From the IMG/VR virus record IMGVR_UViG_3300028920_000044, positions 45,195 through 109,194 of that record: DNA of 64,000 bases. The stretch is one strand, 5' to 3'. Position 1 is the first letter of the stretch. The number at the start of each line of letters is the position of its first letter. The notes below the pieces were generated by a model. The model was not told the DNA's origin, ran no database searches, and saw only the letters and a list, made by a program, of their open reading frames with translations. The position numbers were made by a program, and so were the translations under genes. The stretch comes from a virus. Positions 15,390 through 54,317 of this stretch are shown in pieces.

Positions 15390-18300
15390 TTATCCTCCAG
15401 CACCAAGATCTACAAAAGTTCCAACACCATCTACCCAATCAACACCATCATACCATACAGGGATAGATATACCTGCTCTACTTGCTAGACTTCCAATAAA
15501 CCACATTTCACCAGTAACAGGTGAAGGAGGAAGCGAATCTGCGGTAGCTGCATAATTCCAACTCACACCACCAGAAGGTCTAGCAGCTAACTCATCCAAC
15601 GCACTTAATACTTCTATTGGAGAACCAGTCCAATCCCCAGACGTTGTTGGTATATAATTAATCTTAGACGCTTCTGCTACTGTTTGATTCACAACTGTTC
15701 CCGTCGAAGATGGATCAACTAATACCCCAGTACCTAGTGAGAATGGAACTGTAACTATAAGCGATCCACCATTCATTACAATAGCATCATTCGTGCTCGC
15801 ATTAATTACTGGATGAACAGCAGTGCCTCCAGAAGTACCATTAAAGTCTATTTGACCAGTAAAGAAAGCCAAGAAACTATCTAATACTGCAGCATTGTTT
15901 AACTGTAATGATATCGCGTTGTTTTGAGAATTATTTTGAGTTTTCCACTGACTTAACGTACCATGATCAACAGTAGCCGACATTCCTGCTCCAGTGTTGT
16001 TGAAATTTGTATCTTCTGCAATAACAATAGATCCTGCTCCAGTGTTGTTCATGTGCAAAGCAGGTTGCAATCCGGCAGAATTAACTTCACAGTTAATCAA
16101 ATTAAATCTTTGTGGATTTGTACCATAGAACTTAACAGTTGCATCAACAGATCCGCTACCAGAAATATCAATTCCACAAAATGATGCTACATTACCATCT
16201 GCTCCACCTGATGTATTACTTGTGCTATAACCTACATCACCATTAATAGTACAAATAGAATTCTTTTCAGGTGAATCACAAACGAAATGCATTCCTGCTT
16301 CAATTACTATATCCTCAGTATATGATCCTGGAGCAACAGATATTAATGTTTCTCCAGATACTGCTCCGATTGCAGCAGTGAGGGTTTTAAACGGTCTACC
16401 AAGCGAACCATCAGCAGTATATGAATCTACTCTATTCCCATCTACTTTCAATGTAGTTGTTATTGGATGATCGATTACACTAGAAGGATGAGTAGTAGGA
16501 TGCACATACGCAATCGCGTTATCTTCTATACCATTCAATTTAGTGAGAAGAGTATCTGTTAACGCATTAGTCTCCGATTCAGATTCATATGCAATTTTAA
16601 TTTCTGCACCAGTCATATCCGCGGTTGCACCATCTTCAATGCCTGATAATTTCGTTAAATTAGCATTAGTAAAAACATTCGTATCTGGATTTAATTCATA
16701 TGCAGCTTTAATTTCGACAGAAGACATATCACCAGAAGCACCAGTCTCAACACCATCTAACTTTAATTTATCAGCAGCGGACATAAACCCACCAGTAACT
16801 GTTGTTGCGGCAGAATGCAGATTACCTCCACCTCTTGTTCCGTGTTGAGAATCACTGAAAGGCATTACTGCCCAATTAACACTTAATTCAGAACTACCAT
16901 TAATCGATAAGCCTGTTCCTACTTTAGATACACCAGGAGTTGCTGCACTTGCAATAGGTATAGATATTTCGCCAGTTCCATCATCTACATTAACATTAGC
17001 TCCTGCGATTACTACACCCAAAGCAGAACCTTGTGCATGAGGTACAGATACTATACCACTCGCAACATTAAGATTATCACCAACCTGTAAAACACCCCTT
17101 CTAGTATCTGACCCTCTATATACATCTATTTCGGATATTTCAGGATCAACATCGATATTACCACCTGATTTAACAGATAGAACACCTTTATTACCATATC
17201 CACCTGTTTCTACAGCAATCTCATCTCCATCCATATAAGTGTTTCTTCCTGCTTTTACACCACCGAGAGTAACAGCAGTTGCCACTGGAAGAACGTAATT
17301 GTTAGAGTTGATTGCGATCGTATTTAATTTAGCTTTATCAGATACTGATATAAAACCTGCTTCAGATCCACTTACAAGATTATGTAAATTCCCACCACCT
17401 CTATCACCATGTGCAATATCATCAAATGCATAATTAAGACTTAGGATTCCACCACCATCTACATCTAACCCTGTTCCAACTTTTACACCACCTAGAACAG
17501 AATCTGTAGCAATAGGTAATGAATAAGCATTCGCTCCAGATTCAACACCACCTAATTTAGTCTTCTCTGCATCACTAAACTCATTAGTATTCGCATTCGC
17601 TTCATATGCAGTTTTAACTTGAAGATCTGTCATAGGTGACCAATCAACATCGGCAATCTTAGACCATTGAGATCCATTGTAAGCATACTGTGCCGATTTT
17701 CCATCTCCATCATCTTGGACTAATACACATTGTCCCGCCTGAGGTCCTGCAATAGCATCCCGAGCAGCTATATTAGCAACAGGGCTTAACCAATCCGCAG
17801 ATCCAAAAGAAGGAACATTCTGAATATGAGTCCAATCAATTCTATCAGACGCCCCTCCAGTTGCTATCAATTCTGTTTTCGACCAATAATCTGCCGTTGC
17901 TGCTTTACTATTCCAAGATGATTTTTCAGCATCACTTACAAATCTATGATCTAAATCTTGAACAATCATTACTGATGTATGAGTAGTTGGATGAACATAC
18001 GCATTAGCATTTGTTTCGACTGTTCCCAACTTTGCTTTCTCGGCATCATTAAATTCATTCGTATCAGCATTATTCTCATACGCAGTCTTGATTTCTACAT
18101 CAGTCATATCATCTGTTGCACCATCTTCGAGACCACCTAACTTAACTTTCTCTAAATCAGTAAATACGTTCGTGTTGATATTTGATTCATATGAAGTTTT
18201 AATATCAACAGGAGTCATATCTCCAGCCGTTGCACCATCTTCAACACCATCAAGTTTAGTCCTATCAGCGTCAGTAAATGCGTTAGTATCCACATTAATT

Positions 18301-19214
18301 TCATATGCGAGTTTTACTTCAGATGGCTCCATATCTGCTGATGCATTATCTTCAATAGCATTTAATTTATTTCTATAGTACTCGGTAAAATCATTCGTTG
18401 ATTGAAGAGTAGCACTCAATAGTTGGGTAGTTGGATTCATATTTAAACGATCCCCAACTTTTATTCCTCCAATCTCAGTTGGTGAAGCAACAGGCAATGC
18501 AACGGAAGGTCCTTCATTTGTTAATTGTATAAAGACTGATCCATCGTTTGAGTATTCCCATACATTAAGCGCTTCATTATATCTGAATACTGCATTATTT
18601 TCTATTCCTCTTTCAACTTCAATCCCCACATGGGAGGAAGGAGTACCAACATAATCTTTATTTAAAACAAAGACATCATTTATTGTTCCATTTATATCTG
18701 CTTTACTATCTAATAAATTATCTAATGCACCTTCACTAGCTCTACCATCTAATTCTTCTCTAAGCCCTTCAATGGCTTCAATAGGATGGGAGTCAGGATG
18801 ATTTCTATCTTCAATATCGACATGAGAATAGCTTGTTGACCCCCATAAATTCCTTAAATCAAACACTTTGTCGCCAGTTATCTTTGTATCACCCGCTTGT
18901 AAATACACGGCTGCGAGAGGAAATGCTTTCCTTTCTAGTACCGGTAATTCTGGATTGGTACTCGGTTCCCCCTCAATTAATAAAGCAGCACCGGTATAAT
19001 GTAAACATACTATTGTCCATTTCGCTCCCATTGTAGGCGCTGTGAATCCAGGCGATCTACCACCAACGAATTCGACCCATTGTTTGTTACTGAGCCAAAA
19101 TCCTCCTTCACTTATTTGAACAAACATATCCGGTTCAGATGAGGGCATAACCTTTAAAGAAGAAAAGAATGCACCTGTTCTTCTATATTTGTCACCATAC
19201 GGAGGTAAATGCAT
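15390..19214 (-). CDS. Long tail fibre with tandem 36-38-residue repeats
   Basis: 1274 residues. The N-terminal ~130 residues form a compact head likely to attach to the tail. The middle carries at least six copies of a module of the form DMT-x-x-E-I-K-x-A-Y-E ... D-T-N-x-F-T-D-A ... KL-x-G-x-E-D-G-A, and several GGVKVG / LPVASP strips typical of trimeric fibre shafts. Around residues 980-1080 is a beta-helix-like stretch (LISVAPGSYTEDIVIEAG). The C-terminal ~60 residues carry a W-Y-D-G-V-x-W tip motif. Expected role is host receptor binding. RBS AAGGAG before ATG 19214. Confidence 0.85.
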   Translation of the reverse strand: MHLPPYGDKYRRTGAFFSSLKVMPSSEPDMFVQISEGGFWLSNKQWVEFVGGRSPGFTAPTMGAKWTIVCLHYTGAALLIEGEPSTNPELPVLERKAFPLAAVYLQAGDTKITGDKVFDLRNLWGSTSYSHVDIEDRNHPDSHPIEAIEGLREELDGRASEGALDNLLDSKADINGTINDVFVLNKDYVGTPSSHVGIEVERGIENNAVFRYNEALNVWEYSNDGSVFIQLTNEGPSVALPVASPTEIGGIKVGDRLNMNPTTQLLSATLQSTNDFTEYYRNKLNAIEDNASADMEPSEVKLAYEINVDTNAFTDADRTKLDGVEDGATAGDMTPVDIKTSYESNINTNVFTDLEKVKLGGLEDGATDDMTDVEIKTAYENNADTNEFNDAEKAKLGTVETNANAYVHPTTHTSVMIVQDLDHRFVSDAEKSSWNSKAATADYWSKTELIATGGASDRIDWTHIQNVPSFGSADWLSPVANIAARDAIAGPQAGQCVLVQDDGDGKSAQYAYNGSQWSKIADVDWSPMTDLQVKTAYEANANTNEFSDAEKTKLGGVESGANAYSLPIATDSVLGGVKVGTGLDVDGGGILSLNYAFDDIAHGDRGGGNLHNLVSGSEAGFISVSDKAKLNTIAINSNNYVLPVATAVTLGGVKAGRNTYMDGDEIAVETGGYGNKGVLSVKSGGNIDVDPEISEIDVYRGSDTRRGVLQVGDNLNVASGIVSVPHAQGSALGVVIAGANVNVDDGTGEISIPIASAATPGVSKVGTGLSINGSSELSVNWAVMPFSDSQHGTRGGGNLHSAATTVTGGFMSAADKLKLDGVETGASGDMSSVEIKAAYELNPDTNVFTNANLTKLSGIEDGATADMTGAEIKIAYESESETNALTDTLLTKLNGIEDNAIAYVHPTTHPSSVIDHPITTTLKVDGNRVDSYTADGSLGRPFKTLTAAIGAVSGETLISVAPGSYTEDIVIEAGMHFVCDSPEKNSICTINGDVGYSTSNTSGGADGNVASFCGIDISGSGSVDATVKFYGTNPQRFNLINCEVNSAGLQPALHMNNTGAGSIVIAEDTNFNNTGAGMSATVDHGTLSQWKTQNNSQNNAISLQLNNAAVLDSFLAFFTGQIDFNGTSGGTAVHPVINASTNDAIVMNGGSLIVTVPFSLGTGVLVDPSSTGTVVNQTVAEASKINYIPTTSGDWTGSPIEVLSALDELAARPSGGVSWNYAATADSLPPSPVTGEMWFIGSLASRAGISIPVWYDGVDWVDGVGTFVDLGAGG
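16510..18380 (-). repeat. Coding repeats of the tail fibre shaft
   Basis: Three adjacent ~110-base units cover about 18010-18350, another lies near 17530-17640, and two more at about 16510-16735. Each encodes the AYE...DTN...KL-x-G-x-ED-GA module. Units are diverged in sequence, so these are old duplications rather than recent tandem copies. Confidence 0.7.
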
Positions 19215-20673: not shown

Positions 20674-20940
20674 TTAAATCCGAGTCTTTGTAATTCTGGA
20701 TAAAGGAGTATTAACGTACTGATAAGCTACCTCAGGATTTGGAGGAGCAGCCTTAGGATCTATCTTTCCCTCTGTCTTTCCAGGTCCAGTTAACTTATTC
20801 TTCTTAATCTCCTGGTCAATTTTATCTCCCATAGGAGAATCATCTTTATAAACCTTCATATCAGTTTGGACGCCTTGCTTCAGCATAACATCGCCAGTTT
20901 GTACATCCTCCTCATATAAAGTACCGAGAATACTTAACAT
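20674..20940 (-). CDS. Tagged small protein MLSILGTLYE
   Basis: 88 residues. The L-Y-E at 8-10 meets the L-x-E rule. The rest is hydrophilic, Lys/Asp/Pro-rich and probably disordered. It lies two bases downstream of the large kinase gene and may be co-translated with it. Confidence 0.6.
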   Translation of the reverse strand: MLSILGTLYEEDVQTGDVMLKQGVQTDMKVYKDDSPMGDKIDQEIKKNKLTGPGKTEGKIDPKAAPPNPEVAYQYVNTPLSRITKTRI

Positions 20941-20942
20941 TG

Positions 20943-23900
20943 TTATTCCTCCTCATCTAATACTTTTCTAACTTGTTGAATTAATTCTCTCAATGTGTAA
21001 GGTTTATTAATGAAGCTTTTTGCTCCAGAACCAATTGCGTCGTTAATAGGACCATTAGCAGAATATCCGCTAGCCACAATGATTTTAGCAGTAGGTTCTT
21101 CAATAATAATTCTTTCTAATACTTCTGTTCCTCCTATATCAGGCATAATTAAATCTAGAATAACTAAATCAATTAATTCCTTATTATTATTATAAGTCTC
21201 CAACCCCGATATACCGTCACAAGCAGATAAGACTGTATAACCATACATTTCTAGAATCTTGGTCCCTACTTTCTTGATATCTTCTTCATCATCGATCATA
21301 AGGATAGTTTCTTTTCCACCTATAAGATCCTTAGTTAAATCTATGGATGTTTGTTTCATTTCTTCCCCATCACTAATAGGGATATACAATTTAAACTCTG
21401 TTCCTTCATTCAAATTACTATATACAGTTATATACCCACCATGACTTTGCATAATACCATACACAACGGCTAATCCTAAACCAGTTCCTTTACCTGGTTC
21501 TTTAGTAGTAAAGAAAGGTTCAAAAATTCGTTCTTGTACATCAAAACTCATTCCTTCACCAGAATCAACGATACATATTCTGATATAATTCCCTGGTGTA
21601 GCATCAGGATGTTTCTCACAGTAATATTCGTCTAATTCTACTACCTTCGTTGTGATCATTATATGGCCACCATGAGGCATAGCATCTTTGGCATTTATAC
21701 ATAGATTCGTTATTACTTGATTTAATTGAGTAGGGTCTGCCAAACCAAGTGGTAAATCTTCTTGAAGTTTTAACTTAATTTTTATCATAACTGGACCAGT
21801 TGCTGCACGATCGAGAAGCTTATGGGCTAATTTAATTTCTTCGTTAACATTAATAGATTGAAGTCTACTTTCTACTTGTCTACTAAATGTAAGCAATCGT
21901 TTAGCTAAATCTGCTCCTCGCATAGATGCAGTATACATCGCAGATAACTGGCTTTTGATATCTTCATGATCCTTCACCATAAGTAACTGTAAATTACCGC
22001 TTATGATTTGAACAATGTTGTTAAAGTCATGAGCAACACCACCAGCTAATGTCCCAACGGCTTCCATTTTAGAAGCTCTGCGTAATTGTCTTTCTTTTTC
22101 TAATAAAGCTTCTTGGGCTTTCTTCATACCAGAAATATCTTTAATTATTGAAAGAATATGATCCTCGCCACCTATCTTAATTACACTTGAAGAAACTAAA
22201 GCAGATTTTGAAACACCATCTTTTCCTCTCAACATGGCTTCCATACTATCAACATATCCTCGTTCTCCAAGACTTTCATAGAACTTATCTCTATCTTCTT
22301 GATCTGACCACATCTCTAATTCGATTACATCTTTTCCTATAGCTTCTTCTCTAGTGTATCCTGATTCTTTTGTGAATCCTTGATTAACATCAACTATAAT
22401 ACCACTATTAGCTTTAAGAAGGATTATTGGATCAGGACTTGTTGTAAATGCTAATCTAAATTTCTCTTCACTTTCTTCAAGAGATTTCGTCGCGTTATAG
22501 CTATAAGTAATATCTTCAAATGCAATAGCAATACGATCTCCAGGTAAACAAAATGCTTTTATTCTATAAACACCGTCAAGATGGTCAGAATGATATATAT
22601 AACCTTCATTCTCATACGGACCATTCTTTAAAACGCAAGAATTATAAAGCGCATTCTTTAAATCTCCTCCACCTGGCCATATTTCGTCAAAAGATTTACC
22701 TTGATTACTACCAATATCTATTCTTGTGATTAATTCAGCAGCAGGATTACCATCAATAAGTATCATTTCTAAGTTCTTGCATTCATAAATAAAAATACCC
22801 GATGGTACCGTCTCAAATATTTGAGATGCTGTCTGTAATTCATATTCTGCTTTAACCCGTGAAGTAATATCTTGACCAAGTGAAATAACACCTACTAACT
22901 CACCTTTATCATTATGAAGAATTGTGTTATTCCATTCGCAAGTTATAACATCTCCGGATTTAGTAAGATTATCATTCACAATATGGATCGGTAATGTTTT
23001 ATTTAATAAACTTTCAACAACATCTAAAAGTTGTAAACGCTCATGCTTTGGAATTAAGAAATCAAAGATATTGTTCCCAATTACTTCTTCTTTCGACCAT
23101 CCAAAGATTTTTTCTGCATGATCATTCCATTCTTTTATGTGAGTGTGTTCATCCCAAAATATAATAGCGAGAGGAGCAGTCTCGAAAAGAGTTCTATATC
23201 GCTCTTCACTTTCTCGTATAAGATATTGTGATTGTTTACGACCTAACGCAATACCGATACTCGCTCCAAGTCCTTCAAAAAACTCAATCATATCCAGAGT
23301 AAACATATTCCTTCGACGATCATTTAATTGTAGTAACCCTATATTTATTCCTTCTGGAGAAACTAATGGAATAAGACCAACTGACATATATCCTTCTGCA
23401 TTACACCTGTTACGAGTTTTAAGTTTGACACCTGTCGGTACACCATCGTCTTTTAATAATTCAACTGTGTTATTTGTCCAGAAACTACCACCAATTGTAA
23501 AGTGGGGTAGGTTAGAATCTGTCTCTCCGCAAATAATCATACCACACATACAATCTAAACAAGCTGTACCGTCCGAATGCCTGATTACATTACCTACTTC
23601 GTCCCGTGAACATATATGGGTTTCTTTTTGAACAAAGTCTTCATCAAATCCTTCAGTTACATAATAAGGATATTCATCATTATCTTGTAATCTAATAGCA
23701 ACAGCATCTAACCTAGTAAACCTTTTAATAAGAGTTAAAATCTTCTTAATAGTTAATTCAGCTTCAAATTCAGAATTAAGAATATCTAAGACATTTGAAG
23801 ATAACTCCTGTCTTTCCCGATAACGTACTACATCTGATATGTCAGAGACTATTCCCACAAATCCAATTACCTCATTGTTTTTATCTCGTTTATAATTCCA

Positions 23901-26021
23901 ATCAACTTGAACATCAAAAGTTCTTCCACCTTTAGTGATATTCTTACCTTGATAAGTCTTAGGATCTGGTTGATCTATTGGTAAACTTCTAAACATATCT
24001 TTAAGTTCGTCTTTATTTTTGTCGCCCACAAACTCCCATATGTAATGCCCTAATACTTCGTCTTTAGACATTCTCATCATTTTTATATAAGCGCTATTAA
24101 CATAAATAAGTTTACCATTAATATCTAATTCTTCAATACCGTATGGACTTGTTTCTACTAATACACGATATTTTTTCTCACTTTCAATCAAAGCTTTTTC
24201 CGCCAACTTACGATCTGTTACATTAATAAGTATCCCATCTATAACATCGTGTTCTTCGTTATATCGGGCAGACACTTCAAGAGCAACATCCGATCCATCC
24301 TTTTTAGTTCCTTTAATAGGAAGATTATCGATTCTTTTTACTTCTCTTAAATGATCTATAACGTTATTAATCTGTGTTTGATCAGTATATTTCCCCCAAC
24401 CGGTAAATTTATCAAAGAGATCTGTAGAATCATCATATCCAAGCATTTTTATATGAGCAGGATTAGCTTCTATTGTTTTACCGGTGCTGATTTGTATTTG
24501 AAACATACCTACCATGGACGTTTCATATATAGTTCTGTATTTTCTTTCACTATCTTCAATAATTTTTCGTTGAGCTAATCTATTTGTTATATCTCTAGCA
24601 AATGCAACTATATATTCAACTTTATCAAATACAACATAAGTAGCAGATATTTCGACAGGTATTTTACTACTATCTTCTCTTTTATGTGTATGTTCGAAAA
24701 TCAACCAACCTTTAGTTCTCATTTGGATGAAATGTTCTTTCCATTCCTTCTTTCCAAAATCACTAAAATGAATATCCCATACATTCTTTTTCATCAATTG
24801 GTCTTTAGTATATCCTAATTGACTACATGCAGTTTGATTCACATATACAAATCTTCCATTTTTATTTAACCAAAAAGCAGCATCTTTCATAGCGTGTACA
24901 GCAAATTTAGTGAATTTAAGAAGCTTCTCAACTTTTAATCGAGCAAGTCGTTGGGTAATAAAAGCAACAATAATAAAGAACTGTATTACTATTATTGTGA
25001 TACTTGGCCAAAAATATTTCTTATATTTATCATAAAATGATATTGGAGCATTTATTATAACACTGTCAACTGGTAATCTTTGTAAGTCTATATTACGATT
25101 CATTAAAACATTATAATCAAACATTGGGGTGTTTGGACTTTTAATTACAACGGGAATTGAATTAATATCGATTCCTGATAACACTTTAACTGCCATGTTA
25201 GCAGCAATCTCCCCCTGTTTAAATCCATTTATAACATATCCTCCAATTATCTCATTACTAACACCAACTTCAAAATCACAAACGGTATACATTGAAATAT
25301 CAGGCCTTAATTTTTTAACCATGCTCGTTACTTGTCTTAATGATAATATCTTACCATCAATAGAATGACTAAATAGATATTTAATTATTGCAGATCTAAC
25401 AGGCAACGACAATATCCATTTTTTAATCCCATCAATTGTCCATGTATGGATCCATGAAACATAACCGTCGAGATCGGAATTATTATCAAATATATCCTTA
25501 ATTACTGAGTTGTCCGGTAGTCGAGTATCAATAACTACACCAATATGAGTAACATCTGGTTGTAACTGGTTAATCACATATATAGTTTTTGTCAGATCAA
25601 ATTCTTCCATAACTCCAGTTACGTCTTTTACTTCTACAATATTAAACAATGGATTAATACCACAAAAAATAATAGGAGTAGATATATCTACATATGCTTC
25701 CTCACGATGATTTAATGCAAACTCTAATGCATTATTATCGGACACAATAATGAGATCAAATTTCTTGTTTTTATGTTTAATATCAACGACTTCATGAAGC
25801 AACGTTCTTATTTCATCATAATTATTTCTTTTTGTGTCTAAATATTCTATGTGTTCTATATGATGCTCATTGGCATCTAAAACACTATCAATACCCTCCT
25901 GAATCCTATCTGTCCAAGCAAATCCTTGATGGTAAGAGTGAATAATTAATATCTCACCAGCGTTTGCTGCCGAACATAAAAGGGCAAATGCGCACATTAG
26001 TAAGATTGTTTTTAGCTTCAA
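20943..26021 (-). CDS. Hybrid sensor histidine kinase, multi-PAS
   Basis: 1692 residues. Order: signal peptide (1-21), periplasmic ABC-substrate-binding-like sensor (23-325), membrane segment (about 339-358), three PAS domains (370-735), a GAF-like domain (745-930) containing CLDCMCGMIICGE, three more PAS domains (935-1305), HisKA with phospho-His1331 in GGVAHDFNN, HATPase with N-box NLCINAKDAM, DSGEGM and GKGTGLGL, and a C-terminal receiver with Asp1623 and Lys1673. All catalytic residues seem intact. It should phosphorylate its own receiver and perhaps the 26035 protein in the host inner membrane. A kinase this size in a run of virion genes is exceptional; acquired from a bacterium, probably. 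Confidence 0.92.
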   Translation of the reverse strand: MKLKTILLMCAFALLCSAANAGEILIIHSYHQGFAWTDRIQEGIDSVLDANEHHIEHIEYLDTKRNNYDEIRTLLHEVVDIKHKNKKFDLIIVSDNNALEFALNHREEAYVDISTPIIFCGINPLFNIVEVKDVTGVMEEFDLTKTIYVINQLQPDVTHIGVVIDTRLPDNSVIKDIFDNNSDLDGYVSWIHTWTIDGIKKWILSLPVRSAIIKYLFSHSIDGKILSLRQVTSMVKKLRPDISMYTVCDFEVGVSNEIIGGYVINGFKQGEIAANMAVKVLSGIDINSIPVVIKSPNTPMFDYNVLMNRNIDLQRLPVDSVIINAPISFYDKYKKYFWPSITIIVIQFFIIVAFITQRLARLKVEKLLKFTKFAVHAMKDAAFWLNKNGRFVYVNQTACSQLGYTKDQLMKKNVWDIHFSDFGKKEWKEHFIQMRTKGWLIFEHTHKREDSSKIPVEISATYVVFDKVEYIVAFARDITNRLAQRKIIEDSERKYRTIYETSMVGMFQIQISTGKTIEANPAHIKMLGYDDSTDLFDKFTGWGKYTDQTQINNVIDHLREVKRIDNLPIKGTKKDGSDVALEVSARYNEEHDVIDGILINVTDRKLAEKALIESEKKYRVLVETSPYGIEELDINGKLIYVNSAYIKMMRMSKDEVLGHYIWEFVGDKNKDELKDMFRSLPIDQPDPKTYQGKNITKGGRTFDVQVDWNYKRDKNNEVIGFVGIVSDISDVVRYRERQELSSNVLDILNSEFEAELTIKKILTLIKRFTRLDAVAIRLQDNDEYPYYVTEGFDEDFVQKETHICSRDEVGNVIRHSDGTACLDCMCGMIICGETDSNLPHFTIGGSFWTNNTVELLKDDGVPTGVKLKTRNRCNAEGYMSVGLIPLVSPEGINIGLLQLNDRRRNMFTLDMIEFFEGLGASIGIALGRKQSQYLIRESEERYRTLFETAPLAIIFWDEHTHIKEWNDHAEKIFGWSKEEVIGNNIFDFLIPKHERLQLLDVVESLLNKTLPIHIVNDNLTKSGDVITCEWNNTILHNDKGELVGVISLGQDITSRVKAEYELQTASQIFETVPSGIFIYECKNLEMILIDGNPAAELITRIDIGSNQGKSFDEIWPGGGDLKNALYNSCVLKNGPYENEGYIYHSDHLDGVYRIKAFCLPGDRIAIAFEDITYSYNATKSLEESEEKFRLAFTTSPDPIILLKANSGIIVDVNQGFTKESGYTREEAIGKDVIELEMWSDQEDRDKFYESLGERGYVDSMEAMLRGKDGVSKSALVSSSVIKIGGEDHILSIIKDISGMKKAQEALLEKERQLRRASKMEAVGTLAGGVAHDFNNIVQIISGNLQLLMVKDHEDIKSQLSAMYTASMRGADLAKRLLTFSRQVESRLQSINVNEEIKLAHKLLDRAATGPVMIKIKLKLQEDLPLGLADPTQLNQVITNLCINAKDAMPHGGHIMITTKVVELDEYYCEKHPDATPGNYIRICIVDSGEGMSFDVQERIFEPFFTTKEPGKGTGLGLAVVYGIMQSHGGYITVYSNLNEGTEFKLYIPISDGEEMKQTSIDLTKDLIGGKETILMIDDEEDIKKVGTKILEMYGYTVLSACDGISGLETYNNNKELIDLVILDLIMPDIGGTEVLERIIIEEPTAKIIVASGYSANGPINDAIGSGAKSFINKPYTLRELIQQVRKVLDEEE

Positions 26022-26034
26022 ATAACACCTCCGA

Positions 26035-26403
26035 TTATTCGTCGAGTACTTCTCTAACGACTGTTTCTAACTCTTTTATATCTACTGGTTTCTGAACTAA
26101 TCTTTTTGCACCTAAACTCGAACCATCCTCATTAGATGAAGTAATATAACCACTTAAAACTATAACCTTCACTTCTGGATTTATCTGTGTTAGCAGCACA
26201 ATAGCATCTTCTCCTTCAATATCAGGTAAACGCAAATCCATAAGTATTAAATCGATGTTACTATAATTTTGTTCATAATATGATTTAGCAGATGTAAATT
26301 CATAAAAACAAACAGTTTTATAATTATACTTTCCTAACATCTGGGCCAATATATCACAAATAGGCTTTTCATCATCCAATATTAATATTGATTCTTTAGA
26401 CAA
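26035..26403 (-). CDS. Stand-alone response regulator receiver
   Basis: 122 residues, a complete REC fold and nothing else: acidic pair Asp10/Asp11, phospho-acceptor Asp56 in LILMDLRLPD, Ser84, and Lys105 in QKP. Thirteen bases upstream of the hybrid kinase, so likely its partner or a phosphate sink. With no output domain it would act by protein contact. Confidence 0.9.
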   Translation of the reverse strand: MSKESILILDDEKPICDILAQMLGKYNYKTVCFYEFTSAKSYYEQNYSNIDLILMDLRLPDIEGEDAIVLLTQINPEVKVIVLSGYITSSNEDGSSLGAKRLVQKPVDIKELETVVREVLDE

Positions 26404-27306: not shown

Positions 27307-27537
27307 TTAATCATCGTCATATCCCGGTTCACCAATGTTTTTGACTGTGTCTACATCATCCCCAAATTTAGCAATAGCGTCCATCTTTGCTTTTTTAGTT
27401 AGTTTCATATGTATATCAATCATAGTTTTCAATGGGTCATCTGCTTTTTCAAGTACACTTGCTAAAGGAAGACGGTAAACTATCTTTTCAGGCTTTTTGC
27501 CTGAATTAAATGTTATTTCGTAAACTATTTCATCCAT
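27307..27537 (-). CDS. Small acidic protein next to baseplate hub, unknown
   Basis: 76 residues, beta-rich start (YEITFNSGKKPEKIVYRLPL) and an acidic tail. Overlaps the hub gene by eight bases, so coupled in translation. Could be a hub-assembly partner; no family recognised. Confidence 0.6.
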   Translation of the reverse strand: MDEIVYEITFNSGKKPEKIVYRLPLASVLEKADDPLKTMIDIHMKLTKKAKMDAIAKFGDDVDTVKNIGEPGYDDD

Positions 27538-28624
27538 TTACACTACCATAGCCCCCGTCAGGTTTTGTAACATCGTCACATTTCTTACCTACTGCGGTAT
27601 CACTATCATATTCTTCCGTTTCTTTTGGACCTAAATCAATTACTTCTGTTTTAGGTTGAGCATCTTCGGCAACTTTTGAGACCTTTGCTTGTTTCTTATT
27701 CGCTAATCCACTTTGTATATTAACACCACCAGCACCATCTATATTCACAGAACTATCACTATAAATATTACATGTTCCTGTAACAGAAATATTACAATCT
27801 CCGTCAACTTCAAGAGTCATATCGTCTACAACAGATATATCATAACTACCTTCTATATTATCAATTTTATCACCAACAGTTGTAAGATGATGCTCTCCAT
27901 GAACATTTTCTTTACGATCCTTATAAACGATTTTATCTTCATTTTGAACAACATTAACTGTTCTATTACCACCAACTGCTAGATCTTCATTTTCTGCAAT
28001 ATTAGCTTTTCTATTCTTCTTAACGAGAAGACTTTTATCTCCATCAATCTGTTTATTATCATCAAGTTTTATACGAACACGACGATTGTCCCTAGTCCAA
28101 ATATGAATGCCTGATTCATCTATTCGATAGACTGTTCTTCGTTCTGGACTCTCATCACGATTATATACTAAATAAATAGTGTTTGGCTCTTTTTCAGTCT
28201 CTTCATTAACATAGAATATGTTAAATTTTTTTGGTGTCTTAAATATAATATATTGTTCGTCCCTATCTAGAACTGCAGGTTTAACTGTTCTTCCATCTTG
28301 AGCTTCATTATCGGTATTATCATCAGCATCAGAAATTATACGATTAATGTACCCAGAACTATAATCATTACTATAAAATTTGACTATTACTTTGGTACCT
28401 GCATGTAAAGGATAATAGCTGCCATATTCCCCATTGTCTGATGGTGTGATCCTCCAAGCATGAACTTGGTTCTTACACCATATTCCTTTATCTTCAGTAA
28501 GATGTTGCATTATCTCAGGCAAGTGAACTTTATAACGACCCATTTGTCTAGGGTCTGGTTCGCCTAAAATAGTACCAATAAATTCTTTCTCAATGAGGGA
28601 TTCTAAAATATCTAATTCGCTCAT
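27530..28624 (-). CDS. Baseplate central spike/hub, gp5/VgrG-like
   Basis: 364 residues from ATG 28624 (AAGGAT upstream). N-terminal OB-fold phrase FIGTILGEPDPRQMGRYKVH with later HAGTKVIVKFYSNDYSSGYI, as in gp5/VgrG hubs. From about residue 170 onward the sequence shows short V-x-V-x-G-D/N repeats ending in GAGGVNIQSG, the triple beta-helix needle. In the family it pierces the outer membrane when the sheath contracts. There is no inserted lysozyme domain, unlike T4 gp5. Confidence 0.8.
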   Translation of the reverse strand: MSELDILESLIEKEFIGTILGEPDPRQMGRYKVHLPEIMQHLTEDKGIWCKNQVHAWRITPSDNGEYGSYYPLHAGTKVIVKFYSNDYSSGYINRIISDADDNTDNEAQDGRTVKPAVLDRDEQYIIFKTPKKFNIFYVNEETEKEPNTIYLVYNRDESPERRTVYRIDESGIHIWTRDNRRVRIKLDDNKQIDGDKSLLVKKNRKANIAENEDLAVGGNRTVNVVQNEDKIVYKDRKENVHGEHHLTTVGDKIDNIEGSYDISVVDDMTLEVDGDCNISVTGTCNIYSDSSVNIDGAGGVNIQSGLANKKQAKVSKVAEDAQPKTEVIDLGPKETEEYDSDTAVGKKCDDVTKPDGGYGSVNG

Positions 28625-28628
28625 AGTA

Positions 28629-28967
28629 TTATCCTTCGTATGCACCTAATTCTTTTAATATCTCATTAACCTTTTCAGCGATAACATCTTCATACTGTAT
28701 ACCAATCTGATAATCTCCTCCGGCACCACCTGCAGTTACAGGTACCTTCTGACACCACACTACTTTAGCTGCAAACAAGTGATGTGTGCCTTCAAGTGAA
28801 AACTGTATCATATCATCCACTTGAAATAATTGATCGACCATCAATGACATACCTCCATGGCATATATTTGAACTTTTAGCCACTCTTATAGACGTGCCAT
28901 CTCCAAAAACATATGTCACATCAATAGCATACTGATATCGATCAACTTCTCTTCTATCATCACTCAT
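28629..28967 (-). CDS. PilZ-like c-di-GMP-binding protein
   Basis: 112 residues from ATG 28967 with AGGAG upstream. DRREVDRYQY followed by SSNICHGGMSL fits the RxxxR and (D/N)xSxxG arrangement, but the Ser is replaced by Cys and the first motif is loose, so ligand binding is less certain than in its relatives at 43790, 47992, 51117 and 52317. Its last bases hold the ribosome site of the hub gene. Confidence 0.6.
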   Translation of the reverse strand: MSDDRREVDRYQYAIDVTYVFGDGTSIRVAKSSNICHGGMSLMVDQLFQVDDMIQFSLEGTHHLFAAKVVWCQKVPVTAGGAGGDYQIGIQYEDVIAEKVNEILKELGAYEG

Positions 28968-43688: not shown

Positions 43689-43842
43689 TTAAAATCCTTA
43701 TATTAGATAGTATTTCGTTACGTCTATCGCATCCTGAGCGTCGCTCTTTGCCTCCACGAACAAAATAAGTGAGATCCAAAAATTTTCTTCTATTCTCTTG
43801 CCTCCGTCTCTCCGATATTCCCTTCCGTTTTTGGGTCTTCAT
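43627..43842 (-). CDS. Small basic protein with ERRSGCDRR motif
   Basis: 71 residues. GGKERRSGCDRR recalls the E-R-R-S-G-x-D-R-R strip often found beside PilZ domains in signalling-rich bacteria. It lies between a PilZ gene and the 42951 gene and overlaps both, so it may be a regulatory partner or a leftover fragment. Confidence 0.45.
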   Translation of the reverse strand: MKTQKRKGISERRRQENRRKFLDLTYFVRGGKERRSGCDRRNEILSNIRILNDRDIQVQLQYSSQTGRISD

Positions 43843-44152
43843 CTGGTAACCTTACGCCTAAGAACACAGCTAACCTTCTTCTAATTTCGTTATCAATTGT
43901 CGTTGAATTAAAGTAAATACCAATATCAAATACCCCATTCGCTATTTCTTGACATCTAAGTGCAGTTGATTTAAAATTTGCATCTCCATCAGGTAATTGT
44001 AGCGTCGTGTCTAATTCAGTTAACCGAGGGATATCTCGACTTGATGTACAACTTAATCCACCCATACTTATGTTCTTGGTCTGACAGTATACACCATCAA
44101 GAATCACTGTTAATACTTCATTCTTCCTCACAGCCGTTCTATTATCAGACAT
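43790..44152 (-). CDS. PilZ-domain protein, predicted c-di-GMP binder
   Basis: 120 residues. NISMGGLSC gives the N-x-S-x-x-G motif, preceded by the R-rich start (NRTAVRKNE) and followed by LQLPDGD and FDIGIYF, the usual PilZ beta strands. A single domain with no output part. Confidence 0.75.
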   Translation of the reverse strand: MSDNRTAVRKNEVLTVILDGVYCQTKNISMGGLSCTSSRDIPRLTELDTTLQLPDGDANFKSTALRCQEIANGVFDIGIYFNSTTIDNEIRRRLAVFLGVRLPDEDPKTEGNIGETEARE

Positions 44153-44156
44153 GTTA

Positions 44157-44339
44157 TCACCTAAGGCTAGAGTATCTACTCAATACTTTATTTTGATATA
44201 TTGTAAATAATCCTTTTTTCTTCTCTCTCTTTACTGGATCAGGTTCCTTTTTAATGGCATCAGCCATTGCAGGAATTACTTTTGTAGGCTTACTTAAATT
44301 AGCTGCTTTACCATCAAATATATGACTAATTGAAATCAT
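44157..44339 (-). CDS. Tagged small protein MISISHIFD
   Basis: 60 residues, variant tag I-F-D. Basic, disordered remainder (KKEPDPVKREKKKGLFTIYQ). Start overlaps the stop of the 44339 gene by one base. Confidence 0.6.
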   Translation of the reverse strand: MISISHIFDGKAANLSKPTKVIPAMADAIKKEPDPVKREKKKGLFTIYQNKVLSRYSSLR

Positions 44340-44803
44340 TATGACACACTCCTCGCAAATGTTTTAGCGACATCTCTCGCTTTCTCATCTGTTTTAATAA
44401 TAAACGGTTTGCTTATTCTATCGAATCCACTTGTTTTATTAGTAATCTTATCACCTATACCAAAAGAAGCAATAGCTCGATGACTCCATCCAAACCATTT
44501 ACCACTCGCCGCTTTACCGAATGAATCTACTGAACTGTTCATAGTTTGTCTTTCTCCTCTAATTCCTAACCACTGAGGATAAGTCGACAATGGATGCCCT
44601 TTAGAGTCTTTTGGTACATTCTTAACAGTTCGATCTTCTGGTGCAATTTTAGTAACAAAATATTGATTGCGTTTAAACTTCTTCATCCTATTTGTTTTAG
44701 GATTAAAGTCTTTAACCTTCTTTTTCTTTCTTTTAACAACAGCATATTCACCAGATTTAAGATCTGGCTTTTTATCTTCAAATAACCAAGATATAGTAAT
44801 CAT
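44339..44803 (-). CDS. Tagged protein MITISWLFE, 154 residues
   Basis: Strict tag, then a Lys-rich strip (VVKRKKKKVKDFNPKTNRMK), then a compact part with GKWFGWSHRAIASFGIGD. The latter looks like a folded domain of unknown family. Probably packaged. Confidence 0.65.
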   Translation of the reverse strand: MITISWLFEDKKPDLKSGEYAVVKRKKKKVKDFNPKTNRMKKFKRNQYFVTKIAPEDRTVKNVPKDSKGHPLSTYPQWLGIRGERQTMNSSVDSFGKAASGKWFGWSHRAIASFGIGDKITNKTSGFDRISKPFIIKTDEKARDVAKTFARSVS

Positions 44804-46558: not shown

Positions 46559-47608
46559 CTACTCCTTTAAAGATTCAAGAAAATCATTAAAATCATTAAA
46601 ACCATACAATACATCAAATGCAGCATCCGCACATTCTTCATCATACAGTATACCTCTGTTTTTATTTATTTCATCTAACGCTACCGCAACTCCAAGAGCA
46701 GGCCTATATGGTCTATGTGTTGACATCGATTCGATTACATCACTAACAGCAATAATCTTGGATGAAAACAAAATGTCATCACCTTTTAATCCTTGTGGGT
46801 AACCAGACCCATTTATTCTCTCGTGATGTTGATGTACTATTTCAGAAACATCACAAGGTAACAGATCTTTAAATGGAATGTTTTTAATTATATCGTATCC
46901 TACATCTGAATGGTCTTTAATCAAAGCAAACTCATTCTTACTCAATTTTGATGGTTTAGTCAAAATATCAGAAGGTATAGATATCTTACCAATATCATGC
47001 ATTAAGCCAGCAATACGAACACAATCAACTCTATCTTCTTTTAATCCAAGAATCTTAGCCATTTCAACAGATAATTGTGTAACCCTTTCTTGATGTCCCG
47101 CAGTATAAGGATCTCTAGCTTCCGTTACTTTGGAGAGAGTTCTAATTGTTTGATCTAATACATTAATTACTTCTTGAGTTTTTTCTTTCACTTCTCTCTC
47201 TAAATTTATCTTATAATTCTCTTGGTGTACTAAGAGTTGATATTTTTCAATACAATTATTGACGGTGTGCAGTAACAAATCAAAATTAACCGGTTTCATT
47301 AAATAATCACAGGCACCATGTCTAAGAGAATCTACTATATCCTGCATTGAACCAGCACCAGAGAACATAACAACTTGGTGTTTTGGATAATCACTTTTAA
47401 TAAGTGCCAAAAGTTGAACACCAGTCAATCTTGGCATATCAATATCAGTAAGCGTTACAATTGGCGTATATTGATTAAATAATCTTAAACCTTCCTCCCC
47501 ATCGTTTGCTGTAATGACTTCGAACCCATTCCCCTCCAAGAAATGTTTTATTGGTTCTACTACCAACGGTTCATCATCAATCAAAAGAATCTTAAAGGGT
47601 TCATTCAT
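46559..47608 (-). CDS. Response regulator with HD-GYP c-di-GMP phosphodiesterase
   Basis: 349 residues from ATG 47608; a GTG one codon earlier is possible. Receiver domain with acidic pair in LLIDDEP and Asp56 in TLTDIDMP (numbered from the GTG), Lys106. Then a helical linker and an HD-GYP domain: MHDIGK at 204-209 and HHERINGSGYPQG from 262. Known members cut c-di-GMP to pGpG/GMP. All diagnostic residues are present. It overlaps the stop of the nuclease gene upstream. Confidence 0.9.
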   Translation of the reverse strand: MNEPFKILLIDDEPLVVEPIKHFLEGNGFEVITANDGEEGLRLFNQYTPIVTLTDIDMPRLTGVQLLALIKSDYPKHQVVMFSGAGSMQDIVDSLRHGACDYLMKPVNFDLLLHTVNNCIEKYQLLVHQENYKINLEREVKEKTQEVINVLDQTIRTLSKVTEARDPYTAGHQERVTQLSVEMAKILGLKEDRVDCVRIAGLMHDIGKISIPSDILTKPSKLSKNEFALIKDHSDVGYDIIKNIPFKDLLPCDVSEIVHQHHERINGSGYPQGLKGDDILFSSKIIAVSDVIESMSTHRPYRPALGVAVALDEINKNRGILYDEECADAAFDVLYGFNDFNDFLESLKE

Positions 47609-47991: not shown

Positions 47992-48297
47992 CTAAATATT
48001 CAAACATGTTTCTAAATCCATTCTAACACTCGATGTCGGAGAAAGAGGATCAAACTTAATTGCAGTCGAATACTCCCTTTTATCCAGTTTAACACACCGA
48101 TTACAAAGCCCCGTAAGGTTAATATCACCCGAAGGTAAACTTAAAATGATAGTTAATAATGATCCTTTTTCGATAAATTTATTAGTTCGACACATTACTC
48201 CACTCAAACTAATATCTTTTGTTTTGCCAAGAATTTGGTCATTTATTTTTATATTTAATTCTTGACATGCTCGGTTAAAGAATCTTTGATCATTCAT
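47992..48297 (-). CDS. PilZ-domain protein
   Basis: 101 residues from ATG 48297 with AGAGGA upstream. KDISLSGVMC is a good D-x-S-x-x-G motif and LSLPSGDINL the following strand. The arginine motif is weak (FFNRACQ). Confidence 0.65.
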   Translation of the reverse strand: MNDQRFFNRACQELNIKINDQILGKTKDISLSGVMCRTNKFIEKGSLLTIILSLPSGDINLTGLCNRCVKLDKREYSTAIKFDPLSPTSSVRMDLETCLNI

Positions 48298-50885: not shown

Positions 50886-51133
50886 TTCTCTAATTTTGAT
50901 AATAGTTCCATTTTGCCCGAATCAGCGCTCTTTTGAAATCTTAATACAACAGTTTTACCAGATTTCGCTCTAAACTTTTTAGATCGAATAAGAGGCCTAC
51001 CAGTATCTGGATCTTTCGCAGCTTCGGACTCTTTTGGTTTATCTTTCGGTTCATAATGTGTATAACCACCAGATTTTGTTTTCTTACCTGGTTCGAATTC
51101 CTGCTTTTCAAATAAATTACTTACGGGTAACAT
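50882..51133 (-). CDS. Tagged small protein MLPVSNLFE
   Basis: 83 residues, strict L-F-E. Lys/Glu/Ser-rich remainder with RSKKFRAKSGKTVVLRF. No fold recognised. Overlaps the 51117 PilZ gene by 17 bases. Confidence 0.65.
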   Translation of the reverse strand: MLPVSNLFEKQEFEPGKKTKSGGYTHYEPKDKPKESEAAKDPDTGRPLIRSKKFRAKSGKTVVLRFQKSADSGKMELLSKLEK

Positions 51134-51467
51134 AATTACCTTTTCCTTCTAAGAATTCTTCTAATAATAATTTATCTTCATCAAGTATACTTTCTTTTTT
51201 GAAACATAATGCTGTGTGGTACACGCCACAATTAACATTTAATGTTCGTAAAGTAGTAGCTTCAATGAAAATACTTCTATCAGGTAGTTTTAATTCAATC
51301 TTATAATCTGTAATATCTTCAAGTATTTGGTTCACGGTCGCGTAAAGCCCACCCATACCTATATTGGTAGTTCGTCCACAAATTTGACCATTGATTATTA
51401 TATCGATTGATTTTTCTACCCGAACATGTCGGCGATTACCTAGAACCGCATTAGTAACTACTAGCAT
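51117..51467 (-). CDS. PilZ-domain protein
   Basis: 116 residues. RRHVRVEKS gives R-x-x-x-R and TTNIGMGGLY gives N-x-G-x-G-G in place of N-x-S-x-x-G. The remaining strands (IELKLPDRSIF) fit PilZ. Ribosome site weak; start not certain. Confidence 0.65.
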   Translation of the reverse strand: MLVVTNAVLGNRRHVRVEKSIDIIINGQICGRTTNIGMGGLYATVNQILEDITDYKIELKLPDRSIFIEATTLRTLNVNCGVYHTALCFKKESILDEDKLLLEEFLEGKGNYVTRK

Positions 51468-52316: not shown

Positions 52317-52691
52317 TCAGCCATCAATTTCAAAATGGTCAATTTTTCTTTCTTCTTTCTCATTAATAAAATTATCAATCTTCTTTCGAACACCCATATC
52401 AATACTACTAAAATAAATGCCTACTTCATAATTATCTTGTTTAATTTTCTCACAACGAACGACAACTCCATCAAATATAACATCATCATCAGGAAGATTA
52501 AGGGTTAATCTTAATCTAGTCATTTCACTTATAGGTTTAGTCATTGTACAGCTAGCACCAACACAACTCAAATCCTTTGTTTCCCCGTGAATATCGTGAG
52601 ATGCATCTTCAGGAATTATCTTGAACTTAATTGGAGCTTTGACTCTTTTACTTCTTCGTCTTTCACGTATTATAACTTTTTCTTCAGTCAT
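52317..52691 (-). CDS. PilZ-domain protein, predicted c-di-GMP binder
   Basis: 124 residues. RERRRSKRVKAPIKF (R-x-x-x-R) and KDLSCVGASC (D-x-S-x-x-G), then LTLNLPDDDVIF and YEVGIYF. The most canonical of the five PilZ proteins here. Confidence 0.8.
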   Translation of the reverse strand: MTEEKVIIRERRRSKRVKAPIKFKIIPEDASHDIHGETKDLSCVGASCTMTKPISEMTRLRLTLNLPDDDVIFDGVVVRCEKIKQDNYEVGIYFSSIDMGVRKKIDNFINEKEERKIDHFEIDG

Positions 52692-52701: not shown

Positions 52702-53283
52702 CTAAGTTTTGGTAATTTGAACCCTTTTAAACCAACCTCGGCAATACTTTTCCTGAGTAGGGCTTTTCTTCATATAATTTAAATAATGACTAGCCTGTAA
52801 AGTATTCATAATTTTAAGTAGTAATTCATCCGAATCAACCCTCAAATATATGCTTAAGTTCATCATAGTAGTTGGTCCTAATTGTCCATCATCAGACATA
52901 TCGGGAAATAGTTTACCGTTACGATTTAGAAAATTAAGACTTCTCTGAAGAAATTTAACTGACCGTTTAATACCCATATTAACTCCGGTATCAAACATTT
53001 CTTCACCAAGATCTTGGGAAGGTAAATCATCCCCTTGGAATGGATCCCAATAATGATGTTTATAAAAATTTTGAACCATTTGTTGAATTGTAGCCAACCT
53101 GTCTAGATTTTTAGGGAAGTTAGGTGCTTGTTTAGTACCATCAATAATCTTCCATCCTTCCCAACCAGGATGGAATCTTCGCGCAACACCCTTGTAAGTT
53201 TCCCCACCAGCGTCATCAGGGTCGTGAACATATCCGCCTTCATGCCCCATCGTCTTATCATACGCGTTCTTGAAATTGGCCAT
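52702..53283 (-). CDS. GH108 lysozyme / N-acetylmuramidase
   Basis: 193 residues. HEGGYVHDPDDAGGETYKGV with Glu15 is the GH108 signature, followed by W-x-P-F and a C-terminal peptidoglycan-binding-like half (DDGQLGPTTMMNLSIY). Cleaves peptidoglycan, for lysis or entry. No signal peptide, so a holin or tail delivery is needed. Confidence 0.85.
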   Translation of the reverse strand: MANFKNAYDKTMGHEGGYVHDPDDAGGETYKGVARRFHPGWEGWKIIDGTKQAPNFPKNLDRLATIQQMVQNFYKHHYWDPFQGDDLPSQDLGEEMFDTGVNMGIKRSVKFLQRSLNFLNRNGKLFPDMSDDGQLGPTTMMNLSIYLRVDSDELLLKIMNTLQASHYLNYMKKSPTQEKYCRGWFKRVQITKT

Positions 53284-53470
53284 CCTCTTTATCCTTTTCT
53301 GAATCTAACCCTTTTGTGAAACTAACATATTCTTTTAGTTCTTGTTGTTTATCACTTAGGAAACCTTCAATACATTTCCTACAATGAACCTCATTATTAA
53401 GAACAACAATATCACTAGCCTCTAGTGAACCGTGTTCACGATTACATCTTATCGTCACTCCTGTGCTCAC
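53258..53470 (-). CDS. Small putative zinc-binding protein
   Basis: 70 residues from GTG 53470, which has GGAGAGGA eight bases earlier; the ATG at 53515 has no such site. IRCNREHGSLEA followed by HCRKCIEGF gives C-x3-H ... C-x2-C, a possible zinc site. Overlaps both neighbours. Confidence 0.5.
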   Translation of the reverse strand: MSTGVTIRCNREHGSLEASDIVVLNNEVHCRKCIEGFLSDKQQELKEYVSFTKGLDSEKDKEDGQFQERV

Positions 53471-54113
53471 TTGATTTTTCCTCTCCAGGTTGTTTTGCTT
53501 GTTCTTTCTCAACAACCTTCATTCTTGGTTCGTTATCAACTTCTTCTACATGATTCTTCTTAGTTATTTTATCTCTCTTCCATAACAACGTAAATAGGTT
53601 ACACATGAGATCATCAGGAAGAACAAATTTACTAAATTTTATTTCTTCTGGTTCTCCAAATATGCTGTATATAAACTCGGAACAATAAAGATTTTTATTA
53701 TCACATTTGAAATCGTAATCATATCCAATCTTTTGTTCATGTAATTCTTCAGCTTTCCCTATTGCGGGTTGAATTAGATTATTATTTTTACATCGAAGAA
53801 TACCAATATCGTCACATCTCATAAATGTTAGTATGTCTTCTTTTGTGATCCCCTTACCTAACATATGAATAACGTCATCATCACCCGAATAGAAAGCTGC
53901 ATGAGACCAATATCCTGGTACAAGAAGGCTACCAATATAATGACTGTAACGACGAAGCAATACATCACCAGGTTCAAGAATACCAAGAATCTCTCTCATA
54001 TGATGACCTTTGATTTGGTAATGAGAATCACCAAACAATATAATACCACCAAAATAGATTCGTATATCTGCGGCCCATGCTATAAGTTTATCTTTAAATC
54101 GTTTCTCTGCCAT
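53442..54113 (-). CDS. YiiX-like permuted NlpC/P60 cysteine hydrolase
   Basis: 223 residues. LEPGDVLLRR near residues 46-55, His71 in WSHAAFYSG and Cys134 in YCSEFIYS, the permuted order of YiiX/LRAT-like enzymes. Acts on peptide or lipid amide/ester bonds. A Lys/Glu-rich C-terminal tail follows. Sits with the lysozyme, so a wall or envelope role is plausible. Confidence 0.7.
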   Translation of the reverse strand: MAEKRFKDKLIAWAADIRIYFGGIILFGDSHYQIKGHHMREILGILEPGDVLLRRYSHYIGSLLVPGYWSHAAFYSGDDDVIHMLGKGITKEDILTFMRCDDIGILRCKNNNLIQPAIGKAEELHEQKIGYDYDFKCDNKNLYCSEFIYSIFGEPEEIKFSKFVLPDDLMCNLFTLLWKRDKITKKNHVEEVDNEPRMKVVEKEQAKQPGEEKSSEHRSDDKM

Positions 54114-54117
54114 ATTG

Positions 54118-54309
54118 TTACTCCTTTGGTAAAGATTTAATCGATTTAGCTTTTACATCAAGATCCTTTCTATCTTTTACCTTATCTCTTAATAATGCCA
54201 TTGCTGGTAACAATGTACGAGTATTTAATCTTTTTCTTAAAAATAATTCTTTACCTTTTTTATTACCTAATCCAACAATAAAATCATATTTCTCTAATAT
54301 ACTAATCAT
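54118..54309 (-). CDS. Small basic protein MISILEKYDF, possible variant tag
   Basis: 63 residues. Basic with ELFLRKRLNTRTLLPAMALL. The tag is only partly like the others. Unknown function. Confidence 0.55.
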   Translation of the reverse strand: MISILEKYDFIVGLGNKKGKELFLRKRLNTRTLLPAMALLRDKVKDRKDLDVKAKSIKSLPKE

Positions 54310-54317
54310 GTTAACTC

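Follow-up and report, generated by a model that had tools for sequence, protein, structure and literature searches.

Known phage eavesdropping relies on single receptors or on a lone kinase. The window analysed here, 64,000 nucleotides of a virus (bases 45195-109194 of the 109,194-base record IMGVR_UViG_3300028920_000044), encodes a hybrid histidine kinase, a stand-alone receiver, a response regulator that joins a receiver (REC) to an HD-GYP domain, and several PilZ proteins. A sensor, a relay, an effector enzyme and messenger receptors are thus apparently present in one virus, and they are inherited in two phages, the second being the relative G001 (IMGVR_UViG_3300040781_000188, 61,481 bases; retrieved with a UvsX query).

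AgrC of phiCDHM1 is likewise a phage histidine kinase but belongs to a quorum-sensing cassette; its description reports a HATPase for which no receptor domain was identified, no accompanying response regulator and a GC content below that of the phage (PMC3901668). Unlike phiCDHM1, the phage described here has kinase, receivers and effector together. HD-GYP enzymes are also encoded by jumbo phages, where they were read as a counter-nucleotide defence; the text of that survey contains no occurrence of 'PilZ', and its sole mention of 'histidine kinase' contrasts a divergent receiver with two-component systems (PMC7824862). In Caulobacter, cyclic di-GMP (c-di-GMP) binds and switches the hybrid kinase CckA, and a Y514D mutant is impaired in binding (PMC5189948). 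The literature searched, which covered few subscription-journal papers and some sources only in part, yielded no description of a phage-encoded PilZ protein or of a phage kinase paired with an HD-GYP regulator from the same phage. Within the reach of these searches, no virus has been described that combines a sensor, a relay, a phosphodiesterase and messenger receptors.

Other phage hybrid kinases are represented by PHROG 5982 and by a 737-residue PAS-kinase-receiver-like open reading frame in the 735-kb phage LR756501. The original prediction, made from the letters of this DNA alone, had held complete kinases of such a size to be very rare in phages. This is partly borne out: 81 of 50,697 phage records matched the kinase (tblastn), none of them across 80% or more of it and at least one (MaAM05) being bacterial-looking, but there are phage hybrid kinases in the two cases above, and kinases occur in the relatives G003 and G007. 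The kinase and HD-GYP matches in MaAM05 were dismissed, the record carrying ribosomal protein and tRNA-ligase genes.

A hybrid histidine kinase with a membrane sensor

The domains of the kinase were assigned by scanning the protein against Pfam segment by segment (Table 1). The periplasmic sensor exceeds its cut-off of 25.9 bits. PAS1 (60.2 bits), PAS2 (28.0 bits), PAS3 (52.6 bits), PAS4 (70.9 bits) and PAS6 (41.5 bits) each exceed the cut-off of their best model, and PAS5 falls 0.1 bit short (21.7 bits, cut-off 21.8). The GAF domain scores 26.4 bits (cut-off 22.4; 21.1 bits, below cut-off, in a scan of the whole protein) and HATPase_c 80.7 bits (cut-off 26.4). HisKA reaches 25.7 bits (E 1.2e-5), 1.2 bits short of its cut-off of 26.9, and 23.0 bits, also below cut-off, in the whole-protein scan, which gives the C-terminal receiver 71.7 bits (cut-off 30.2).

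All active-site letters are present, namely His1331 (in AHDFNN), Asn1443 and the motifs VDSGEGM, EPFFTTK and GKGTGLGL, and the receiver site is intact, with Asp1623 and Lys1673. The protein therefore has what defines a hybrid kinase, a DHp domain with a phosphorylatable histidine followed by the N, G1, F and G2 boxes. It also has the parts of a membrane sensor, with a signal peptide and a transmembrane helix recognized from hydropathy alone, residues 1-27 and 335-362 being its only hydrophobic stretches, and a periplasmic domain recognized by PF04392. A predicted structure of the periplasmic sensor was discarded (pLDDT 46.7, too low to use). The open reading frame starts with TTG behind the Shine-Dalgarno sequence CGGAGG; the gene of the stand-alone receiver also starts with TTG, behind AAGGAGG.

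With 1692 codons and such profile scores, the reading frame is not a product of chance. Judged by its sequence, the product is an intact, phage-encoded hybrid histidine kinase with a receiver partner. This bears out the original prediction on the size and intact residues of the kinase, on its signal peptide, sensor, six PAS and single GAF domains, and on the receiver partner, a 122-residue protein that conserves Asp56 and Lys105. Insertion of the kinase into the host membrane during infection, proposed at the same time, is likely.

The closest solved core is that of CckA (PDB 5idj/5idm; E 9e-41). Both kinases have the order PAS-DHp-CA-receiver; unlike CckA, the phage kinase has a large periplasmic sensor, six PAS domains and a GAF domain. 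With the numbering anchored on His322 of CckA, two c-di-GMP contact residues of the CA domain were compared: the position of Tyr514 is a tyrosine in both phage kinases, and that of Trp523 is Tyr or Phe. Tyrosine at the Tyr514 position is common in this class of kinases.

An HD-GYP regulator and small PilZ proteins

The original prediction concerned the kinase and its receiver and overlooked the HD-GYP and PilZ genes, which lie elsewhere in the window. In the REC-HD-GYP protein, the REC domain scores 87.1 bits and the HD-GYP domain 121.8 bits, both above the curated Pfam cut-offs. The proteins of this phage and G001 are 47% identical and keep HDIGK and HHER..GSGYP intact. The same arrangement of REC followed by HD-GYP is found in regulators of the RpfG type, here in a phage. 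Among PDB entries, the HD-GYP domain matches V-cGAP3 (5z7c) best; as in that enzyme and in PmGH (4mcw), the HD, HHE and GYP motifs are intact, and the phage motif DPYTAGH has Tyr where 4mcw has Glu.

A genome-wide family search found three receivers in each of the two phages, in the hybrid kinase, the lone receiver and the REC-HD-GYP protein, and only the last has an output domain. The HD-GYP enzyme is therefore the candidate target if the kinase acts on an effective phage protein. No GGDEF or EAL domain was found in any of the ten records searched (10/10), with positive controls in 8 and 6 of 14 genomes, so that the module, as far as found, is limited to degrading or binding.

Five PilZ or PilZ-like proteins are encoded by this phage, three above the Pfam cut-off (28629, 47992 and 52317), one below it (43790) and one recognized only as a paralogue (51117). 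G001 has six: four above the cut-off, one below and one paralogue. The genome-wide PilZ search missed the 28629 copy, and its counts (3 here, 5 in G001) are too low. RxxxR is present in all 11 aligned rows and [DN]xSxxG in 9 of the 11 (3/5 in this phage, 6/6 in G001); a twelfth row (51472) was removed as not PilZ. One copy of the five was modelled (pLDDT 81.8), with MotI/DgrA, the CesA PilZ domain and YcgR as top PDB matches, and several of the matching chains listed are c-di-GMP complexes. In the fold of this modelled copy and in motifs, the phage proteins resemble these three; they differ in being single-domain and present in several copies per genome. They are concrete candidates for viral PilZ proteins acting as c-di-GMP readers or sponges.

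One entry of a viral model library, S5VYD7, matches the PilZ fold below E 0.001 (E 1.7e-4). Neither of two copies scanned matched PHROG, one copy searched against the 50,697 phage records gave no match, and PilZ was absent from the phage records KF147891, LR756501, LR756508 and MW353175. Next to the 52317 copy, the interval 52702-54113 holds the gene of a GH108 endolysin and, upstream of it, that of a C92 papain-like amidase; the endolysin-PilZ order is kept in G001.

Table 1 Signalling genes of the window and their neighbours, in window positions
Feature	Position	Strand	Basis
Hybrid histidine kinase, 1692 aa	20943..26021	-	Signal peptide, PF04392-type sensor, transmembrane helix, PAS1-3, GAF, PAS4-6, DHp/CA, receiver
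Kinase, predicted signal peptide, residues 1-27	25941..26021	-	Hydropathy (hydrophobic stretch)
Kinase, predicted periplasmic sensor, residues 23-334, ABC_sub_bind type	25020..25955	-	PF04392, 34.5 bits
Kinase, predicted transmembrane helix, residues 335-362	24936..25019	-	Hydropathy
Kinase, six PAS, single GAF between PAS3 and PAS4	22122..24950	-	Pfam scan by segment
Kinase, DHp and catalytic domain, His1331, CckA-like	21357..22130	-	Pfam by segment, solved-structure match, motifs
Kinase, C-terminal receiver, Asp1623	20943..21317	-	Pfam and motif
Stand-alone receiver, 122 aa, Asp56 and Lys105 conserved	26035..26403	-	Open reading frame, Pfam and motif
REC-HD-GYP response regulator, 349 aa, HD-GYP motifs intact	46559..47608	-	Pfam and motifs
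PilZ beside baseplate hub gene; RxxxR kept, second motif degenerate	28629..28967	-	31.9 bits (longer start)
PilZ-like, both motifs	43790..44152	-	19.6 bits, below cut-off
PilZ, both motifs	47992..48297	-	33.5 bits
PilZ-like paralogue, RxxxR kept	51117..51467	-	No Pfam match; recognized as paralogue only
PilZ, both motifs, 10 bp past endolysin gene	52317..52691	-	50.5 bits; model like c-di-GMP-binding PilZ structures
88-aa protein, no function assigned, 2 bp past kinase; G001 counterpart in same place, 50%	20674..20940	-	
gp5-like baseplate hub gene, upstream in kinase gene run	27530..28645	-	Context
Tail fibre gene, downstream in kinase gene run	15390..19214	-	Context

Inheritance within the phage lineage

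The receiver and kinase genes have good ribosome sites and are part of a tightly packed run of tail and baseplate genes. The run comprises the gp5-like baseplate hub, a 76-residue protein, an unassigned protein of 292-295 residues, the receiver, the kinase and the 88-residue protein, followed by an unassigned 200-residue protein, proteins of 157 and 61 residues and the 1274-residue tail fibre. The receiver gene lies 13 bp upstream of the kinase gene, and the gaps in the run are 13, 13 and then 2 bp.

G001, whose TerL is 76% identical to that of this phage, is mostly collinear with it over its 61 kb, apart from local gains and losses and a few genes that have moved. In the same place it encodes a receiver (123 residues), a hybrid kinase (1442 residues) and the 88-residue homologue; the tail fibre gene at the far end of the run is unmatched there. 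Composition also fits the phage: the GC content at third codon positions (GC3) of the kinase gene is 0.205, where 62 long genes average 0.241 (s.d. 0.048), and its codon score lies within the phage range.

The cores of the two kinases are 57% identical (445 bits). Their sensing ends differ, that of G001 being of the SBP_bac_3 type (PF00497, 27.3 bits, cut-off 26.4) and that of this phage of the PF04392 type. Past the signal peptide the G001 kinase has three hydrophobic stretches, against one here, and it apparently has fewer PAS domains, although these were not counted by segment. With cores alike and the parts outside the core different, the two sequences indicate that the receiver-kinase pair was inherited within the phage lineage and that its sensing end was exchanged.

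Comparison with 56 further loci, 15 bacterial and 41 from viral contigs, places other cores at a greater distance. The nearest viral-contig core (L165, best of 41) is 45% identical (308 bits) and the nearest bacterial core (L146, best of 15) 42% (270 bits). The bacterial set was drawn from 299 genomes of the phylum of a Burkholderiales metagenome-assembled genome (MAG); up to two candidates in each of these were scored, and 15 loci entered the comparison. Of the 56 loci, 55 matched and 47 were long enough to enter the tree; in the first core comparison, loci L018-L020 and L024 yielded no row. The two phage cores cluster with support of 92/91 in a tree of 17 rows; in a larger tree of 49 rows, where L165 is adjacent, the support is 100/100. 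The L165 kinase lies at one edge of its 5.7-kb contig, next to open reading frames that look terminase-like and portal-like (read by eye), and is perhaps the host flank of a provirus.

The core-alignment scan returned 42 viral loci, one of them G001; the fetched flanks of the other 41 contained no further gene of this phage, except for a 24% match in L200. Viral scans with the kinase alone, and with its 295-residue neighbour, found no relative. A donor scan of genome contigs gave eight weak loci; the highest identity, 61% in L021, was rejected, as it covers a PAS fragment of 44 residues where a high-GC Burkholderiales MAG contig ends. No donor or host emerged from these scans, whose sample did not include Desulfobacterota, a group in which the GAF type of this kinase is common.

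Signalling genes in further relatives

A TerL query gave 176 related viral loci, of which 80 were kept; this record and 13 of the 80, picked by rank and length, were searched. Among these 14 records, HATPase_c was matched in eight (one below cut-off, several non-kinase or unread), HD-GYP (HD_5) in three, PilZ in two and receivers in five. The HATPase matches of G004, G005, G006 and G012 were not tallied as kinases, that of G004 being in a topoisomerase-like open reading frame (read by eye); G003 has a second HATPase match, likewise left out of the kinase reading, and the family search found no receiver in G004, G005 and G006.

G003 (314,837 bases, TerL 53% identical) has a 512-residue kinase with an adjoining receiver among tail-fibre genes, beside a GH108 endolysin, and a second receiver accompanied by a PAS protein. 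It also encodes a periplasmic protein, itself without a Pfam match, that aligns weakly (22%) with the sensor of this phage, and its PAS-HD-GYP protein has an enzyme domain 50% identical to the one described here. G007 has a 491-residue kinase (HATPase_c 35.9 bits, HisKA below cut-off) with a weakly receiver-like neighbour (16.9 bits, below cut-off). Across this phage lineage, then, genes for signalling keep reappearing, with changing parts. In G003, the cluster that surrounds the endolysin and tail fibres within bases 108001-140000 (L136, L137) comprises a kinase, receivers, PAS and a protein of periplasmic-binding-like type.

A proposed signalling circuit

The best explanation is that a phage lineage with T4-type relatives of its terminase, sheath and polymerase has long kept these genes as its own, and that they form a virus-encoded two-component and cyclic-dinucleotide module. 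In the mechanism that we propose, the kinase would be made in the infected cell and reach the inner membrane, where its periplasmic domain would sense a ligand and its PAS and GAF domains small molecules or redox state. Once autophosphorylated on His1331, the kinase would pass phosphate by way of its own receiver, with the lone receiver as a possible further relay, to the phage REC-HD-GYP protein. That enzyme would hydrolyse a cyclic dinucleotide, either c-di-GMP or a related one, and the same messenger would be bound by the small PilZ proteins. The virus would thereby lower and read this signal inside the infected cell in response to conditions outside it, possibly keeping the cell motile or out of a biofilm, or timing late events. 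The analysis establishes the genes, their intact motifs, their synteny and their descent; phosphotransfer between the partners, the substrate, the direction of the effect and its benefit are what we infer.

That the kinase controls the phage phosphodiesterase, which together with the PilZ proteins lowers or reads a cyclic dinucleotide, has in our estimate a probability of about 0.4. We put forward slightly more tentatively a whole viral circuit of outside-sensing kinase, relay receivers, receiver-gated phosphodiesterase and several messenger receptors, in which the sensor was swapped and the core kept. Binding of c-di-GMP to the CckA-like kinase core as well would make the circuit feed back on itself, a possible but weakly supported extension by analogy with CckA. 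Whether a virus runs its own environmental signalling in the host cell could be tested with a few purified proteins.

Several observations weigh against the kinase-phosphodiesterase connection. The partnership of the kinase with the HD-GYP protein is drawn from exclusion and not from an operon, the genes lying about 20.5 kb apart, and the receiver count behind it comes from a search with a loose first step that missed one PilZ copy, so that a divergent receiver could escape. Pfam shows no Hpt domain in the kinase, and Hpt or ChpT proteins were not searched elsewhere in the phage. The closest solved HD-GYP acts, by its name V-cGAP3, on 3'3'-cGAMP, and 2 of the 11 PilZ rows have no second motif. 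In G003 the HD-GYP protein has PAS in place of REC and PilZ gave 0 matches, so that the wiring is seen in no more than two phages. The kinase also lies within an apparently late structural gene run and may be made late only.

The main alternative is that the same proteins serve counter-defence, with HD-GYP degrading and PilZ soaking up CBASS-type cyclic dinucleotides and the kinase acting as a separate regulator or trigger. Some STING-type CBASS systems use c-di-GMP. A Tad6-like anti-Thoeris gene (44339-44803) shares a gene block with the HD-GYP gene at a distance of about 1.8 kb, the PilZ genes at 43790 and 47992 flank this pair on either side, and the HD-GYP domain is closest to V-cGAP3. Phage sponges of nucleotide signals are an established strategy, and jumbo-phage HD-GYP enzymes were predicted to defend against SMODS/CBASS and CRISPR nucleotide signals (PMC7824862). 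We nevertheless consider this explanation rather unlikely: it accounts neither for the receiver on the enzyme nor for the conserved sensor kinase, PilZ is known for c-di-GMP rather than for CBASS signals, and the Pfam scans made (PADLOC was not searched) placed the HD-GYP and PilZ proteins in no inhibitor family. Less probable again is a kinase that chiefly signals to host response regulators, for example for lysis timing or host physiology, with HD-GYP and PilZ independent of it. Neither the lone receiver nor that of the hybrid kinase has an output domain, the receiver family search found no receiver-bearing DNA-binding regulator in the phage, the G003 kinase cluster surrounds an endolysin gene, and the kinase of phiCDHM1, which has no regulator of its own, was proposed to act through a host regulator (PMC3901668). 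Against this, the phage supplies its own REC-HD-GYP protein.

Two further explanations concern the kinase gene itself. It could be neutral or recently captured cargo, an intact yet unimportant bacterial gene, as the different sensors of the two phages (typical of loosely selected genes) and the missing receiver matches of G004, G005 and G006 might suggest. This is improbable for a big gene that has stayed intact although the cores have diverged to 57%, that has an identical location and neighbour order in G001 and that is phage-typical in GC3. An assembly chimera or host contamination, the possibility that the original prediction had named as refuting it, has a negligible chance: it is ruled out by the largely identical gene order of G001, unless both assemblies share an identical error, and by the tight gene spacing, the ribosome sites and the phage codon usage of the kinase. 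Nothing in this record points to it; the one hint is that the collection of phage records includes the bacterial-looking MaAM05.

Other features of the window and of compared records

On the plus strand, 56070-59960 is a stretch of about 3.9 kb without a long open reading frame, with a GC content of 0.40-0.41 against about 0.34-0.36 around it and a reversed GC skew. It contains many short degenerate repeats, including an 84-bp near-perfect tandem pair (59603-59770), follows a 316-residue open reading frame (55117-56067; no Pfam or PHROG match) and ends in a hairpin and T run (seen by eye). It has no Rfam match and is absent from G001, and is a candidate long noncoding RNA or protein-binding array.

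Small, mostly unrelated proteins within 12406-51133 share an N-terminal leader like MI[TPS][IV]SxLFE, for example those at 19433, 42730, 44157, 44339, 44813, 45256, 48659, 49386 and 50882. The pattern, composed after examples had been seen, occurs in 11 of 141 called genes and in one more found by start scan, and at 6 starts with a ribosome site in G001, against 0 in three base shuffles of each genome. The kinase, HD-GYP and PilZ proteins do not carry it. By analogy with T4, it may serve capsid packaging or targeting. Among the proteins that bear it is the Tad6-like type I Thoeris inhibitor at 44339-44803 (PF25188, 53 bits, cut-off 27).

MW495066.1, 'Microcystis phage MaAM05' (L016, L017), labelled a complete phage genome, is bacterial-looking: the two stretches examined carry genes for ribosomal proteins, tRNA ligases and secretion. 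In G001 the TerL gene is split between residues 164 and 165 by an intron-like insert of about 286 bases (L015:1237-3412; G001 54000-58000), and UvsX is likewise read as two open reading frames. The head-protein gene at L003:1497-3050 has a GC3 of 0.456, whereas none of the other 61 long genes in the comparison exceeds 0.326; it is perhaps highly expressed.

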